Shown here: positions 57,752 to 63,979 of the stretch, in pieces
How the letters are laid out: each line of letters begins with the position of its first letter
Position numbering within the stretch: the first letter of the stretch is position 1
Source: Streptomyces leeuwenhoekii
Lineage (GTDB): Bacteria; Actinomycetota; Actinomycetes; Streptomycetales; Streptomycetaceae
Assembly (NCBI RefSeq): GCF_001013905.1
Contig: NZ_LN831790.1
Location: 2,556,001 to 2,620,000 of the forward strand
Direction: 5' to 3'
DNA length: 64,000 bases
Notes under the pieces: model-generated
Database searches by the model: none
Told to the model about the DNA's origin: nothing
Seen by the model: the letters and a program-made list of their open reading frames with translations, nothing else
Position numbers and translations under genes: made by a program

Positions 57752-59356
57752 CTACCGCGCCGGCGCCACCCCGGCCCGCAGCAGCCCGTAGGTGTAGGCG
57801 TCCTCCAGGGCCTGCCAGGAGGCGGCGATGACGTTGTCCCCGACACCCACCGTGGACCACTCCCCCTGTCCGTCGGAGGTGGAGATGAGGACCCGGGTCG
57901 TCGACTGGGTACCGTGCTTGCCCTCCAGGATGCGGACCTTGTAGTCGACCAGCTCCAGCCGGGCGAGCTGCGGGTAGATCTTCTCCAGGGCGACGCGCAG
58001 GGCGCGGTCCAGGGCGTTGACCGGGCCGTTGCCCTCGGCCGTGGCGACGATGCGCTCCCCCTTGGCCCACAGCTTGACGGTGGCCTCGTTGGCGTGGGTG
58101 CCGTCGGGGCGGTCCTCGACGATCGCGCGCCAGGACTCCACCTCGAAGTACTCCAGCGGCCGGCCCTCGGCCTCGGTGCGCAGCAGGAGTTCGAAGCTGG
58201 CGTCGGCCGCCTCGTACGTGTAGCCCTTGAGTTCGCGCTCCTTGACCCGCTCGACGACCCGGCCGACCAGCTCCCGGTCGCCGCCGAGGTCGATGCCGAG
58301 CTCCTTGCCCTTCAGCTCGATCGAGGCGCGGCCGGCCATGTCGGAGACGAGCATCCGCATGGTGTTGCCGACCTGCTCGGGGTCGATGTGCTGGTACAGG
58401 TCGGGGTCCACCTTGATGGCGGAGGCGTGCAGGCCGGCCTTGTGGGCGAAGGCGGAGACACCCACGTAGGGCTGGTGGGTGGAGGGGGTGAGGTTGACGA
58501 CCTCGGCGATGGCGTGCGAGATGCGGGTCGTCTCCCGCAGCCGCCCCTCGGGCAGGACCTTCTTGCCGTACTTCAGCTCCAGCGCGGCCACCACCGGGAA
58601 GAGGTTGGCGTTGCCGACGCGCTCGCCGTAGCCGTTCGCCGTGCACTGGACGTGGGTGGCGCCCGCGTCGACCGCGGCGAGGGTGTTGGCGACGGCGCAC
58701 CCGGTGTCGTCCTGGGCGTGGATGCCGAGGCGGGCACCGGTGTCGGCGAGGACCGTGGAGACCACGGCGTGGATCTGCGCCGGGAGCATGCCGCCGTTGG
58801 TGTCGCACAGGATGACGACGTCCGCGCCCGCCTCCGAGGCCGTGCGGACGACCGCCTTGGCGTACTCGGGGTTGGCGCGGTAGCCGTCGAAGAAGTGCTC
58901 GCAGTCGACGAAGACGCGGCGGCCCTGCGACCGCAGGAAGGAGACGGTGTCGCGGACCATCTCCAGGTTCTCGTCCAGGGTGGTGCGCAGCGCCAGCTCG
59001 ACGTGCCGGTCGTGGGACTTGGCGACCAGTGTGATCACCGGGGCGCCGGACTCCAGCAGGGCCTTGACCTGCGGGTCCTCGGCGGCGGTGGTGCCGGCGC
59101 GGCGGGTGGAGCCGAAGGCCACGAGCTGGGCGTGCTGGAACTCGATCTCCTGCCGGGCACGGGCGAAGAACTCCGTGTCCCGCGGGTTGGCGCCGGGCCA
59201 GCCGCCCTCGATGAAGCCCACGCCGAAGTCGTCCAGGTGCCGCGCGATGGCCAGCTTGTCCGCGACGGTGAGGTTGATGCCCTCGCGCTGCGCGCCGTCG
59301 CGCAGCGTGGTGTCGAAGACGTGGAACGAATCGTCGAGCTCGCTGGTTGCGGTCAT
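57752..59356 (-). CDS. cimA: Citramalate synthase
   Basis: 534 aa. LeuA-type TIM barrel: FHVFDTTLRDGAQREGINLT with the catalytic Arg/Asp, GWPGANPRDTEFF, VDCEHFFDGYRANPEYA and HAQDDTGCAVANTLAAVDAGATHVQCTANGYGERVGN. The C-terminal regulatory LeuA-dimer domain has DYKVRILEGKHGTQSTTRVLISTSDG. It condenses pyruvate and acetyl-CoA to citramalate, a threonine-independent route to isoleucine that also needs LeuCD (in this window). An attenuator-like leader peptide and terminator lie 108-238 bp upstream. Confidence 0.95.
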   Translation of the reverse strand: MTATSELDDSFHVFDTTLRDGAQREGINLTVADKLAIARHLDDFGVGFIEGGWPGANPRDTEFFARARQEIEFQHAQLVAFGSTRRAGTTAAEDPQVKALLESGAPVITLVAKSHDRHVELALRTTLDENLEMVRDTVSFLRSQGRRVFVDCEHFFDGYRANPEYAKAVVRTASEAGADVVILCDTNGGMLPAQIHAVVSTVLADTGARLGIHAQDDTGCAVANTLAAVDAGATHVQCTANGYGERVGNANLFPVVAALELKYGKKVLPEGRLRETTRISHAIAEVVNLTPSTHQPYVGVSAFAHKAGLHASAIKVDPDLYQHIDPEQVGNTMRMLVSDMAGRASIELKGKELGIDLGGDRELVGRVVERVKERELKGYTYEAADASFELLLRTEAEGRPLEYFEVESWRAIVEDRPDGTHANEATVKLWAKGERIVATAEGNGPVNALDRALRVALEKIYPQLARLELVDYKVRILEGKHGTQSTTRVLISTSDGQGEWSTVGVGDNVIAASWQALEDAYTYGLLRAGVAPAR

Positions 59357-59776: not shown

Positions 59777-60385
59777 TCAGCCGCCCGTGCCCAGGGACTC
59801 GTCCAGGAACTCCCGTACGTGGCCGAGCACGGCGGCCCGGCCCGTCCCCCGCAGCCCGATCGCGACATGGATGGCGAAGCCGTCCAGCAGGGCCCGCAGG
59901 CGGGTCGCGTAGCGGTCGGGGTCGACGGGGCGGAACTCCCCGCGGGAGACGCCCTCGGCGAGCAGGGCGACCAGATCGCGGTGCCAGGCTCCCTCGATGG
60001 CGGCCTGGCGGTCGCGGGCGTCGCCGTCGGCGTTCTGCGAGCGGTTCCACACCTCCAGCCACAGCGTCCAGTGCGGATCGCGGTGGCCGTCGGGGACGTA
60101 CAGGTCGACGTAGGCGTCGAGGCGTTCGCGGGCCGTGCCCGGGCGGGTCAGGAGCCGGCCGCGCTCGGCGCCGAGGCGGCCCTCGCTCCACTCCAGGGCC
60201 TGCAGCAGCAGTTCGTCCTTGGAGTGGAAGTAGTAGAGCAGGTGGCCGCTGCTCATGCCGACCTCGCGGCCCAGCGCCGCCATGGTGAGCTTCTCCAGGC
60301 CGCGCTCGGCGATCATCTCCATGGCGGCGGCGAGGACCTGCTCGCGCGGTGGCGCGTTCCTGCGCGGCCGTGCCGCACCGGCCAT
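59777..60385 (-). CDS. TetR-family repressor of the urease-like operon
   Basis: 202 aa from ATG 60385 with AGGAG upstream. The N-terminal TetR helix-turn-helix is clear: REQVLAAAMEMIAERGLEKLTMAALGREVGMSSGHLLYYFHSKDELLLQAL. The C-terminal ligand domain contains WTLWLEVWNRSQNADGDARDRQAAIEGAWH and RLRALLDGFAIHVAIGLRGTGR, like BetI/TetR_C_6 regulators that respond to amines such as choline or polyamine-like compounds. It is the last gene of ureAB-ureC-agmatine deiminase-tetR, nine bases behind the deiminase, and is a natural candidate to bind the inverted repeat at 63961-63979. Confidence 0.88.
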   Translation of the reverse strand: MAGAARPRRNAPPREQVLAAAMEMIAERGLEKLTMAALGREVGMSSGHLLYYFHSKDELLLQALEWSEGRLGAERGRLLTRPGTARERLDAYVDLYVPDGHRDPHWTLWLEVWNRSQNADGDARDRQAAIEGAWHRDLVALLAEGVSRGEFRPVDPDRYATRLRALLDGFAIHVAIGLRGTGRAAVLGHVREFLDESLGTGG

Positions 60386-60394
60386 CTGCGGCTC

Positions 60395-61432
60395 CTAGAC
60401 CTTCGGCTGCTGCTGGGTGATGCAGTGGATGCCTCCACCGCCGGCGAAGATCGTACGCGCGTCGACCAGAGTGACGGTCCGCCCGGGGTGGAGCCGCCGG
60501 AAGATGCCGGCCGCGAGCTCGTCGCGCGGGTCGTCGAAGGCGCACAGGACGACGCCGCCGTTGCAGAGGTAGTGGTTGATGTAGGAGTAGTCGGCCCAGT
60601 GGCCGTCGGCCTCCAGGACGGTGGGGGCCGGGACCTCGACGACCTCCAGGCGGCGGCCCCGGGCGTCGGTGGCGGACCTCAGGAGGGCGATGGCCTCCTT
60701 GGTCACCTCGTGGTCGGGGTGGGCCGGGTCCGGCTGGTGGTGGGCGACGACGACACCGGGGCGGGCGAAGGCGGCGACGATGTCGATGTGGCCGAGGGTG
60801 CCGTAGCCGTACGGGGGGTAGTCGGCGGTCAGGCCGCGCGGCAGCCAGATCGCCTTGGTGGTGCCGAGGTGGGCGTGGATCTCCGCCTCGACCTGCTCCC
60901 TGGTCCAGCCGGGGTTGCGCTCGGGGCCGAGCTGCACGGTCTCGGTGAGCAGGACCGTGCCCTCGCCGTCGATGTGGAAGCCGCCGCCCTCGTTGACCAG
61001 GCGGGAGGCGTAGGTGCGGGCGCCCGCGAGGCCGGCGACATGGGCGCCGATCTTCGCGTCGTGGTCCCAGCGGGCCCACTCCTGGGCGCCCCAGCCGTTG
61101 AACGTCCAGTCCACGGCGGCCAGTTCCCGGCCGTCGGTGACGAACGTGGGGCCGATGTCGCGCATCCAGGCGTCGTCGAGGTCGTGTTCGACGGTGTCGA
61201 CGTCCGGGCCGAGCAGGGCGCGGGCCTCAGCCGACCGGCCGGGGCCGCACACCACGGTGACCGGCTCGAAGCGGCGGATCGCGCGGGCGACCGACGCCCA
61301 GGCGGCGCGGGAGGCGGCGAGGTCCTCGGGGTCGTCGAAGGTGGGGTTGGGGCTGGGCCAGGCCATCCAGGTGCGCTCGTGCGGGGCCCACTCGGGGGGC
61401 ATGCGGAAGCCGTCGGCGGCAGGGGTGGTCAT
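60395..61432 (-). CDS. aguA: Agmatine deiminase
   Basis: 345 aa. Peptidylarginine-deiminase fold of the AguA type: MPPEWAPHERTWMAWPSPNPTF at the N-terminus, DAWMRDIGPTFV (substrate Asp), LVNEGGGFHIDGEGTVLLTE (catalytic His) and the nucleophile Cys337 in FAGGGGIHCITQQQP. It converts agmatine to N-carbamoylputrescine and ammonia. No N-carbamoylputrescine amidase (AguB) gene is adjacent; a urease-like gene occupies that place, 63 bp upstream. Confidence 0.95.
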   Translation of the reverse strand: MTTPAADGFRMPPEWAPHERTWMAWPSPNPTFDDPEDLAASRAAWASVARAIRRFEPVTVVCGPGRSAEARALLGPDVDTVEHDLDDAWMRDIGPTFVTDGRELAAVDWTFNGWGAQEWARWDHDAKIGAHVAGLAGARTYASRLVNEGGGFHIDGEGTVLLTETVQLGPERNPGWTREQVEAEIHAHLGTTKAIWLPRGLTADYPPYGYGTLGHIDIVAAFARPGVVVAHHQPDPAHPDHEVTKEAIALLRSATDARGRRLEVVEVPAPTVLEADGHWADYSYINHYLCNGGVVLCAFDDPRDELAAGIFRRLHPGRTVTLVDARTIFAGGGGIHCITQQQPKV

Positions 61433-61495: not shown

Positions 61496-63220
61496 TCAGA
61501 GGAAGTACAGGCGGTTGAGGGAGACCGAGTCGGCCGGGTCGGAGCGGACCGGGTCGCCGTCGAGGGTGACCAGGCCGGTGCGCTGGTCGACCTCGACCGC
61601 TCCGGTACGGGAGTTCAGCAGCAGGTCGGCCGGGCCGATGCCGCGGGTGCCGTGTACGGCGACCCGGCGGCGGCGGGTCGGCATCCCGTCGCCGCCCTGG
61701 TCGAGGGCGGCCCGGGCGACGAAGGCGACGGATATGTCGGCGGGCGTGGCGCCGTGCGCGCCGAACTGCGGGCCGAGCACCAGGGGTTCGCAGGTGTCGG
61801 TGGCCGCGTTGGGGTCGCCGGTCACGCCGTAGGCCGGGAATCCGGACTTCAGCACGAGTTGCGGCTTGGCGCCGAAGTACTCCGGGCGCCACAGCACGAT
61901 GTCGGCGAGCTTGCCGACCTCGATCGAGCCGACCTCGTGGGACAGACCGTGCGCGATGGCGGGGTTGATGGTCAGCTTGGCGATGTAGCGCAGGACGCGG
62001 GCGTTGTCGTCGTCCGGGCCGTCGCCCCGCATCGGGCCCAGCTCGGCCTTCATCTTCCCGGCCATGGCGAAGGTGCGGCGGACGGTCTCGCCGGCCCGGC
62101 CCATGCCCTGCGCGTCGGAGGAGGTGATGCCGATCGCGCCCAGGTCGTGCAGGACGTCCTCGGCGCCCATCGTCCCCGCGCGGATGCGGTCGCGGGCCAT
62201 GGCGGCGTCGCCCGGCAGGTCGGTCTTCAGGTCGTGGACGGAGACGATCATGCCGTAGTGCTCGGCGACGGCGTCCCGGCCGAAGGGCAGGGTGGGGTTG
62301 GTCGAGGAGCCGATGACGTTGGGGACGCCCGCCATCTTCAGCACGTTGGGGACGTGCCCGCCGCCGCAGCCCTCGATGTGGAAGGCGTGGATGGTGCGGC
62401 CCTCCAGGACCCGCAGGGTGTCCTCGACCGACAGGCACTCGTTCAGGCCGTCGCTGTGCAGGGCGACCTGGACGTCGTGCTCCTCGGCGACCCGCAGGGC
62501 GGTGTCCAGGGCCCGGGTGTGGGCGCCCATGTCCTCGTGGACCTTGAAGCCGCAGGCGCCACCCTCGGCGAGGGCCTCGATCAGGGGCGCGGAGCCGGAG
62601 GACGAACCACGGCCCAGGAAGCCGATGTTGACGGGCCAGGCGTCGAAGGCGTTGAAGGCGTGCCTCAGCGCCCAGGGCGAGTTGACGCCGACGCCCCACA
62701 CCGGCCCGAACTCCTGGCCGATGATGGTGGTCACACCGGAGGCGAGCGAGGCTTCCATGATGCGCGGCGACAGCAGGTGGACATGGGTGTCGACGGCTCC
62801 CGCGGTGGCGATGAGGCCCTCGCCGGACACGATGGAGGTGCCCGTGCCGACGACGACGTCGACGCCGTCGAGGGTGTCGGGGTTGCCGGCCCGGCCGATC
62901 GCGCAGATCCGGCCCTCGCGGATGCCGATGGAGACCTTGCGGATGCCCTGCACGGCGTCGATCACCACGACGTTGCTGATCACGACGTCACAGGTGTCGC
63001 GGACGGCGGCGGCCTTCAGGTGCAGTCCGTCCCGGGCGGTCTTGCCGAAACCGGCGAGGAACTCGTCGCCGTACCGCTGCGCGTCGGACTCCACCCGGAT
63101 GGTCAGCCCGCTGTCGCCGAGGCGGACCCGGTCGCCGGCCCGGGGGCCGTGGGTGGCCGCGTAGGCGTGCGGGTCGATGTGGATCGACTCGCTGATCTCC
63201 CGTCCCTTCGAGCGGCTCAT
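61496..63220 (-). CDS. ureC: Urease alpha-subunit-like amidohydrolase
   Basis: 574 aa; ATG 63220 overlaps the ureAB stop (ATGA). The nickel-site residues of urease are kept: His146/His148 (DTHVH), Lys226 carbamylation site in GFKVHED with His228, His255 (VALHSD), His281 (IHAFH) and Asp369 (TSSD), as are His329 and Arg345 (Klebsiella His320, Arg336). The flap Cys319 equivalent is Val328 (IVSVHDLKT instead of VCHHL), and the usual GGGTGPAAG-TTCTPG region is GQEFGPVWGVGVNSPW. Genes for UreDEFG are not in view. It may be a urease paralogue acting on another ureido substrate. Confidence 0.85.
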   Translation of the reverse strand: MSRSKGREISESIHIDPHAYAATHGPRAGDRVRLGDSGLTIRVESDAQRYGDEFLAGFGKTARDGLHLKAAAVRDTCDVVISNVVVIDAVQGIRKVSIGIREGRICAIGRAGNPDTLDGVDVVVGTGTSIVSGEGLIATAGAVDTHVHLLSPRIMEASLASGVTTIIGQEFGPVWGVGVNSPWALRHAFNAFDAWPVNIGFLGRGSSSGSAPLIEALAEGGACGFKVHEDMGAHTRALDTALRVAEEHDVQVALHSDGLNECLSVEDTLRVLEGRTIHAFHIEGCGGGHVPNVLKMAGVPNVIGSSTNPTLPFGRDAVAEHYGMIVSVHDLKTDLPGDAAMARDRIRAGTMGAEDVLHDLGAIGITSSDAQGMGRAGETVRRTFAMAGKMKAELGPMRGDGPDDDNARVLRYIAKLTINPAIAHGLSHEVGSIEVGKLADIVLWRPEYFGAKPQLVLKSGFPAYGVTGDPNAATDTCEPLVLGPQFGAHGATPADISVAFVARAALDQGGDGMPTRRRRVAVHGTRGIGPADLLLNSRTGAVEVDQRTGLVTLDGDPVRSDPADSVSLNRLYFL

Positions 63221-63921
63221 CGCTCGCCCCCTTCCGGCGTGACCTGGGTGACTCCGAGATATCCGCAGGCGGCGGCCCGGCGCAGGGCCTCCTCCTTGGC
63301 CCCCGGCGCGTCCAGCGGTCCGTCGACCAGCCCGGCGAACCCGATGGCGACCCGCTCTCCGCCGATCGGCACCAGGCCCACCTCGTGGCTCTCGCCCGGC
63401 CCGAAGCGCACGGAGGAGCCGGCCGGTACGGCCAGCCGCATGCCGTAGGCGCGCTCCCGGGGGAAGTCCAGGCGGGGGTTGGCCTCGAAGAAGTGGAAGT
63501 GCGAGGTGACCGACACCGGCACGGCGGCCGTGTTGGTGACCGTCAGCCGTACGGCCGGCTCCGGGTCGGCGTGCAGCGGGCCCGGCAGCAGCGCGCCCGG
63601 CGCCCGCTCTCCGAGGCCCCCGCCGATCGGGTCCGAGACGATCGCCAGCCGGGAACCGTCGTCGAAGACGGCCTCGACGTGCACCTCGGTGACCACGTCC
63701 GCCACACCGGGCAGGACGTCGTCCGGGCCGAGCACCGACCGCGCGCGCTCGATGGCCTCCGCGAGCCGGGCGCCGTCCCGGGCCGCCTCGCAGACGGTGT
63801 CCGCGATGAGCGCCGTCGCCTCGGGCACGTTCAGCCTCAGGCCGCGGGCCCGGCGGGCGCGGGCCAGTTCGGCGGCACCGAACAGCAGCAGCCGGTCGCG
63901 TTCCGTGGGGGTCAGTCTCAT
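63217..63921 (-). CDS. ureAB: Fused urease gamma-beta subunit-like protein
   Basis: 234 aa from ATG 63921 after AGGAGGTG. Residues 1-~100 are the gamma (UreA) domain (LTPTERDRLLLFGAAELARARRARGLRLNVPEATALIADTV, DVLPGVADVVTEVHVEAVFDDGSRLA). Residues ~110-234 are the beta (UreB) domain (VTNTAAVPVSVTSHFHFFEANPRLDFPRERAYGMRLAVPAGSSVRF). Fused UreAB occurs in several bacteria. It is the first gene of the operon and is translationally coupled to ureC. Confidence 0.9.
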   Translation of the reverse strand: MRLTPTERDRLLLFGAAELARARRARGLRLNVPEATALIADTVCEAARDGARLAEAIERARSVLGPDDVLPGVADVVTEVHVEAVFDDGSRLAIVSDPIGGGLGERAPGALLPGPLHADPEPAVRLTVTNTAAVPVSVTSHFHFFEANPRLDFPRERAYGMRLAVPAGSSVRFGPGESHEVGLVPIGGERVAIGFAGLVDGPLDAPGAKEEALRRAAACGYLGVTQVTPEGGER

Positions 63922-63961: not shown

Positions 63962-63979
63962 TTAGAGCAACACTCTAAA
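63961..63979. promoter_or_regulatory. Inverted repeat upstream of the ureAB operon (likely TetR operator)
   Basis: TTTAGAG (63961-63967), CAACA, CTCTAAA (63973-63979): a perfect 7-bp-arm inverted repeat, A/T-rich against the background, 40 bp upstream of ureAB. Size and shape suit a TetR dimer, and the operon ends in a tetR gene. Confidence 0.65.

Follow-up and report, generated by a model that had tools for sequence, protein, structure and literature searches.

The window, a stretch of 64,000 nucleotides from Streptomyces leeuwenhoekii (contig NZ_LN831790.1, positions 2,556,001 to 2,620,000), carries on its minus strand a row of four genes, ureAB', ureC', aguA' and a TetR gene, the first two of which encode the urease-like enzyme considered here (UreAB'C'). 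The ureAB' gene (63217-63921) encodes a fused urease gamma/beta-like protein of 234 residues from an ATG at 63921 (PF00547, 120 bits; PF00699, 106 bits). It overlaps by 4 bases with ureC' (61496-63220, ATG start), the product of which is a urease alpha-like amidohydrolase of 574 residues with an altered pocket (PF00449 and PF01979). The next gene, aguA' (60395-61432), codes for an agmatine-deiminase-like (PAD_porph) guanidino deiminase of 345 residues, which meets the PF04371 cut-off at 363 bits, and the row closes with a TetR/BetI-type repressor (59777-60385, 202 residues, TetR_N), the likely regulator of the operon. The operonic link put forward in a first-pass annotation is borne out, for an agmatine-deiminase-like gene, by this same-strand order and the PF04371 match. 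A palindrome, TTAGAG-N5-CTCTAA (63962-63978, minus strand), lies 40 bp before ureAB' and is a likely TetR operator. Downstream of the operon is a LeuA/citramalate-synthase-like gene (57752-59356, minus strand; HMGL-like and LeuA dimer domains).

The host genome of 8.1 Mb also contains a second, canonical ureA-ureB-ureC-ureF-ureG-ureD operon at C3:6.82 Mb, the accessory genes of which were named by eye and by position; no ureE is seen in it. The earlier statement that ureDEFG are missing therefore holds for the operon in the window and fails for the genome, and a host genome free of urease is ruled out.

UreC' and canonical ureases share about 45-50% identity; the top relatives of UreC', among the matches listed, are from Streptomyces. 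The enzyme shares with UreABC of K. aerogenes, S. pasteurii, jack bean (3la4) and the host itself the gamma, beta and alpha make-up, the family, the ligands and the catalytic residues. The score of UreC' against the TIGR01792 urease equivalog (648.4 bits) is below the cut-off of 680, whereas the wider PRK13207 subfamily cut-off and that of PF00449 are passed. Alignment with K. aerogenes UreC shows that the ligands H134, H136, K217, H246, H272 and D360 and the catalytic H219, H320 and R336 are retained, whereas C319 of the flap is changed to Val328 (62237-62239, minus strand), A363 to Gly372, S361 to Ala370 and W222 to Met231. The loop bearing Ala167, a segment of the urea pocket, is swapped for QEFGPVWGVGVN, with a loss of 4 residues; in the alignments the shortened loop occupies codons 163-183 (VTTIIGQEFGPVWGVGVNSPW; 62672-62734, minus strand). 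The conserved ligands, carbamylated lysine and general-acid histidine, the Val328 flap and the shorter pocket segment had all been described in the first-pass annotation and are borne out, and Gly372, Ala370 and Met231 are to be added to them.

The same features were followed in 237 distinct UreC' relatives, the best-scoring of thousands of matches (two overlapping sets of 120), chosen for nearness. The metal ligands and catalytic residues, including the Lys predicted to be carbamylated, His219, His320, Arg336 and Asp360, are invariant in all 237. The flap residue of canonical urease is replaced by Val in 194 and Ala in 43, Cys occurring in none, and Gly372 is found in 218. Positions 170/370/372 read Glu/Ala/Gly in 217, Asn/Ser/Ala in 19 and Asn/Ser/Gly in one. 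A further sample, the named loci, was obtained by scanning contigs of GTDB species for a clade-specific fragment; it comprises the best 80 of 558 confirmed loci, in order of similarity to a query from Sphaerisporangium, and so is not random. The catalytic residues are kept in 79-80 of these 80, where a run of X in L157 makes the lone gap, and Glu170 is present in every one. The two next-scoring rows of an actinobacterial sample (g80, 50%, L047/L048) have a canonical pocket and were set aside.

According to the available part of PMC7433671, urea is held in urease by the carbonyls of Ala167, Gly277 and Ala363 as hydrogen-bond acceptors, and its second nitrogen is directed towards the active-site channel. 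The altered places of Ala167, Ala363 and Cys319 correspond to residues that hold or border urea in the same description (PMC7433671). Since the second nitrogen faces the channel, a substituent on it would, judged from the alignment, sit where UreC' has changed.

Selection on the operon was estimated by the Nei-Gojobori ratio of non-synonymous to synonymous substitution rates (dN/dS) between the window genes and their Streptomyces orthologues. The ratio is 0.10-0.19 for ureC', 0.12-0.26 for ureAB' and 0.20-0.40 for aguA' (8 orthologues each), and 0.12-0.29 for tetR (5 orthologues, partial). A decayed urease, which the first-pass annotation had offered as the alternative, is contradicted by the low values for ureC' and ruled out by them together with the invariant catalytic residues of the 237 relatives.

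The association with a deiminase gene extends well beyond the window. UreC' occurs in 33 of 61 Streptomyces genomes at 38 places (33 full-length, one in two pieces and 4 fragments), and cross-comparison of two match tables placed a PF04371 gene at most 1.1 kb away at all 38. Among the named loci, aguA lies within 1.5 kb of UreC' at 76 of 80, directly downstream within 400 bases at 71 and in other arrangements at 5. Three of the four loci without it (L136, L145, L156) meet a contig edge on one side; the fourth, L087, is the only one in the best 80 of 558 where aguA is missing although both sides are covered. Streptomyces, Kitasatospora, Streptacidiphilus, Actinacidiphila, Actinospica, Kineococcus and one record named Saccharothrix are represented, besides nine further genera that we take to be Streptosporangiaceae, the family having been checked for two and presumed for the others. 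The partner AguA proteins are about 40-88% identical to that of the window and fall into two or more subfamilies (59-88% and about 40-46%), so that the partner of UreC' is not confined to a single AguA subfamily. In approximately 30 of the 80 named loci, LeuA/citramalate-synthase-like, ilvE-like and leuB-like genes frame the operon. The open-access literature yielded no printed account linking a urease-like enzyme with agmatine deiminase, or placing a urease-like gene in a non-ribosomal peptide synthetase (NRPS) cluster.

The candidate operator follows the operon. Its exact form occurs at 34 places over 1.65 Mb of related, and hence not independent, loci, in every case within the 170 bp that precede the first gene. 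It is present with 0-1 mismatch in 32 of 36 loci of the genus Streptomyces; among the 79 named loci that could be used, it stands with 0-1 mismatch in 37, with 2-3 in 31 (including the Kitasatospora form, TTTGAACGNCGTTCTAA) and with at least 4 in 11. Five of the 61 Streptomyces genomes (G005, G015, G036, G048, G056) keep aguA'-tetR without UreABC'; there aguA' (74-77%) and tetR (69-80%) adjoin each other near cimA-/ilvE-like genes, as in the window. The operator with 0-1 mismatch precedes aguA' in four of the five such loci (L057, L058, L061, L064), the fifth, L066, being short of upstream sequence. The putative operator before both ureAB' and the unaccompanied aguA' is consistent with shared control, which speaks for the reading favoured below.

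The closest solved relatives of AguA' are agmatine deiminases, as compared to which the motifs GGGGIHCITQQQ, GHID, DDAWMRD and EGGGFHIDGEGT are retained; the catalytic residues within them are presumed. Beside the catalytic His, AguA' reads GHID-I instead of GHID-N and carries a small insertion.

The usual enzyme for the product of agmatine deiminase, the N-carbamoylputrescine amidohydrolase AguB (TIGR03381), is not detected over its cut-off in any of the 61 Streptomyces genomes or of 47 further carrier genomes. Its absence from the cluster, noted earlier, is confirmed and extended to the host genome, in which the best match reaches 258 bits against a cut-off of 410. A dedicated AguB elsewhere in the genome was thus rejected. 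The 258-bit protein is a nitrilase encoded near an amidohydrolase gene that resembles dihydropyrimidinase by eye (Pfam: amidohydrolase only). As a nitrilase match to the AguB model at E <= 1e-40 occurs in 58 of 61 Streptomyces genomes and a PF04371 gene in 43, this protein, judged also by its neighbour, looks like a beta-ureidopropionase, although it may act in both pathways. No nitrilase match at E <= 1e-40 was found in 17 of 18 Streptosporangiaceae carriers, the remaining one having a match of 156.6 bits, whereas all of the other 29 carriers have one. Those 18 keep aguA beside UreABC', Microbispora siamensis excepted.

A second AguB-like nitrilase is encoded in four of the five genomes with aguA' alone, but also in five of the 33 UreABC' carriers (G012, G038, G039, G042, G054), and a complementary distribution of the two enzymes was rejected as weak. 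A second kind of cluster, found in G004 and G038, has the order tetR-ureAB'-ureC'-aguA-SBP5 transporter gene (L069, L071). The matching cluster of G054 (L056:4250-8572) reads tetR-aguA-nitrilase-SBP5 without UreABC', its nitrilase scoring 234.9 bits against the AguB model, and a like cluster of G015 (L074) has aguA with neither. The G054 arrangement looks like a swap in which a nitrilase stands in for UreABC', in a single case. The second UreABC' copies of G004 and G038 (L069, L070, L071) lie in a large cluster with the SBP5 transporter gene, permease-like genes, several TetR genes and further PAD_porph homologues with N termini that appear exported by eye. This cluster looks like an island for uptake and breakdown of guanidino compounds.

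The requirement for maturation genes was approached through the carriers. The host UreF, UreG and UreD have no tblastn match in any of the 80 named loci. A genome-wide accessory search of 47 genomes, which represent 48 of 50 loci chosen from these (two loci share one genome), found UreG over its cut-off in 41. In each of the remaining six carriers the single PF00449 gene coincides in position with UreC'; UreF was detected in none of them and UreD in one (G378), while two control carriers were positive for UreG, UreD and UreF. In two of the six (G387, G397) the UreG model finds a weak match below its cut-off, at 31 and 24 bits. Thus 5 of 47 carriers, all draft genomes, have no detectable UreG, UreD, UreF or other UreC: Planomonospora venezuelensis, Kitasatospora phosalacinea NRRL B-16228, Thermoactinospora rubra, K. 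humi and K. xanthocidica. Their UreAB'C' frames are open and keep the motifs. Because accessory genes are clustered, one gap in a draft genome could remove the whole set; five such gaps seem unlikely. Nickel loading by UreG, UreD and UreF hence seems not to be required in these five. Weighing against chaperone independence, a canonical-type UreC match accompanies UreC' in each of the 33 Streptomyces carriers, and UreC' is likewise missing from the 4 genomes that have no such match. Nickel therefore seems possible but not needed everywhere, Zn, Fe and Mn being candidates also. The absence of adjoining accessory genes, the carriers without detectable UreG, UreD or UreF and the nearly constant deiminase-like neighbour set UreAB'C' apart from canonical urease.

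In a tree with midpoint rooting, a 100/100 branch separates UreC', comprising Glu170 and Asn170 branches, from six canonical-type rows; the order of the two branches is undecided, with 9 forks open. The Asn170 relatives, 66-68% identical to UreC' of the window, are found on plasmids of Embleya, Streptomyces and Kitasatospora. In L049-L051 (NZ_CP108786.1, NZ_CP109401.1, NZ_CP109047.1), Asn170-type UreAB and UreC lie inside a conserved NRPS cluster. Three annotated records place UreAB-UreC after NRPS, phosphotransferase and hypothetical genes and before a 2-oxoglutarate-Fe(II)-oxygenase-like or hypothetical gene. The domain scan of one record gave FkbH/FkbM, condensation, adenylation and nitroreductase domains, a homoserine-kinase-like and a weakly B12/radical-SAM-like protein; a 2-oxoglutarate-Fe(II)-oxygenase gene also belongs to this record. 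This context suggests that the family serves other substrates too.

Other altered ureases exist outside this group. The urease of Methylobacterium radiotolerans plasmid pMRAD01 (L169; ureEF(AB)CGD) shares with UreAB'C' the fusion of UreA and UreB, a pocket loop that is shorter and a Gly where canonical urease has Ala363. Unlike UreAB'C', it keeps the flap Cys and its own UreE, UreF, UreG and UreD, and groups with canonical rows, the placement being unsure (midpoint root, long branch). It is possibly a further altered urease with a full accessory set. The same gene order is reported for Bradyrhizobium BTAi1 and P. syringae B728a in the accessible part of PMC2492869. On a Deinococcus radiodurans plasmid (L167), fused UreAB and UreC are followed by HupE/UreJ, HypA and HypB genes, and not by ureEFG, within the stretch shown.

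Taken as a whole, these observations favour, with somewhat better than even confidence, UreAB'C' being a metallo-amidohydrolase of urease descent whose substrate is the ureido compound formed by the neighbouring AguA-type deiminase, most likely N-carbamoylputrescine; substrate, metal and pathway direction are proposed here from sequence features. UreAB'C' would convert N-carbamoylputrescine to the amine, NH3 and CO2, and the operon would serve the TetR-controlled utilisation of agmatine or a close guanidino compound. The distal urea nitrogen, which faces the channel in urease, would carry the alkylamine chain, for which the shorter loop, the Val/Ala flap and Gly372 would make room. Glu170 of the window's subtype may bind the ammonium end, and putrescine would leave after protonation by the retained flap His. 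The metal may be Ni supplied in most carriers by the separate ureFGD of the host; the five carriers without these genes make spontaneous loading of Ni, Zn, Fe or Mn possible. The iron urease of Helicobacter mustelae is independent of accessory proteins. This iron-containing enzyme (PMC3816311, as far as its available part describes it) is a precedent for a non-nickel metal, although unlike the proposed enzyme it is a true urease. The nickel amidohydrolase for substituted ureas advanced in the first-pass annotation thus stands in part: the linkage, the lack of AguB over the cut-off, the pocket, purifying selection and the G054 swap point to a substituted urea, probably N-carbamoylputrescine, while the five carriers speak against nickel as a fixed requirement.

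Several observations weigh against this assignment. AguA' scores 303.8 bits against the TIGR03380 agmatine deiminase equivalog, below the cut-off of 381.8, so that agmatine itself is not assured as the substrate. The Streptomycetaceae nitrilase (246-267 bits to the AguB model) could hydrolyse N-carbamoylputrescine, and SCO6414, together with SCO5527, is given among homologues of the Pseudomonas arginine decarboxylase (ADC) pathway in the available part of PMC3293853. The five genomes with aguA'-tetR and no UreABC' imply that another hydrolase can serve there. Conversely, Microbispora siamensis (L087) has UreABC' but no aguA within 7 kb on each side, and no aguA match occurs in the 17.7-kb stretches of NRPS loci L049-L052, which indicates that the substrate is not set by the urease-like fold alone. 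The second-copy clusters, L073 and the NRPS loci are without the operator, their best matches having 5-6 mismatches.

Some of these points would suit the same chemistry on another substrate, with AguA' and UreAB'C' stripping the guanidino group by deimination and decarbamoylation, the starting compound being not agmatine but, for example, a guanidino-alkylamine or acid of plant or other microbial origin. The low TIGR03380 score of AguA' and its difference beside the catalytic His, the SBP5 importer gene and exported-looking PAD_porph homologues (by eye) of the second-copy clusters, and the Asn170 relatives in NRPS clusters, suggestive of substrate changes within the family, agree with it. As agmatine deiminases remain the closest solved relatives of AguA', and the partners of UreC' also include the 40-46% AguA subfamily, a member of which (L071) reaches 346.9 of 381.8 bits and so comes nearer to the agmatine deiminase model, we regard this substitution of the substrate as unlikely, though the strongest competitor. 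Less probable still is an ordinary second urease that splits urea, borrows the canonical UreF, UreG and UreD and has pocket changes that are neutral or tune affinity. Full retention of the ligands, Lys, His219, His320, Arg336 and Asp360, UreG in 41 of 47 carriers, the canonical-type UreC match in all 33 Streptomyces carriers (and its joint absence with UreC' from 4 genomes), and the similar loop and Gly of the Methylobacterium urease with its full accessory set would fit such an enzyme. SCO5525-5526 are moreover given as urea-utilising ureABC (PMC3293853) and ure(AB)C is counted among ureolysis genes (PMC5489568) in the parts of these accounts available. It is opposed by the 5 of 47 carriers without UreG, UreD, UreF or other UreC and the absence of host UreF/G/D matches from all 80 loci, by pocket changes conserved over the 237 relatives and the missed TIGR01792 cut-off, and by tight linkage to a deiminase whose reaction yields no urea. 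A catalytically dead or moonlighting UreAB'C', as scaffold or regulator of the deiminase, is very improbable: activity is itself a prediction and the flap Cys is lost, but that Cys is excluded as general acid on structural grounds (PMC7433671, available part), and the catalytic residues are invariant in the 237 relatives with a ureC' dN/dS of 0.10-0.19.

The N-carbamoylputrescine assignment gives UreAB'C' the reaction and pathway step of AguB, which belongs to the unrelated CN_hydrolase nitrilase family. In make-up, UreAB'C' equals the second ure(AB)C cluster of S. coelicolor (SCO5525-5526) and S. avermitilis, with orthology inferred from gene numbers and order (PMC2492869, PMC3293853). The available parts of these two accounts describe that cluster as urease or urea-utilising genes only, with no proposal on pocket, deiminase link or substrate.

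Urease is the textbook narrow-substrate nickel enzyme with dedicated chaperones. More tentatively, with the odds leaning against the scheme in its full extent, a urease-fold family may have turned from urea to N-substituted ureas such as N-carbamoylputrescine, no longer needing UreDFG and with spontaneous or other metal loading, replacing the non-homologous AguB across actinobacteria and with a sister branch in natural-product assembly. If true, this would show how a urease pocket can be re-aimed, in some hosts without chaperones. Many 'second ureases' would then be mis-annotated, as where ure(AB)C is taken as ureolysis potential (PMC5489568, available part), and the missing agmatine-to-putrescine step would be filled in a large group of antibiotic-producing bacteria.

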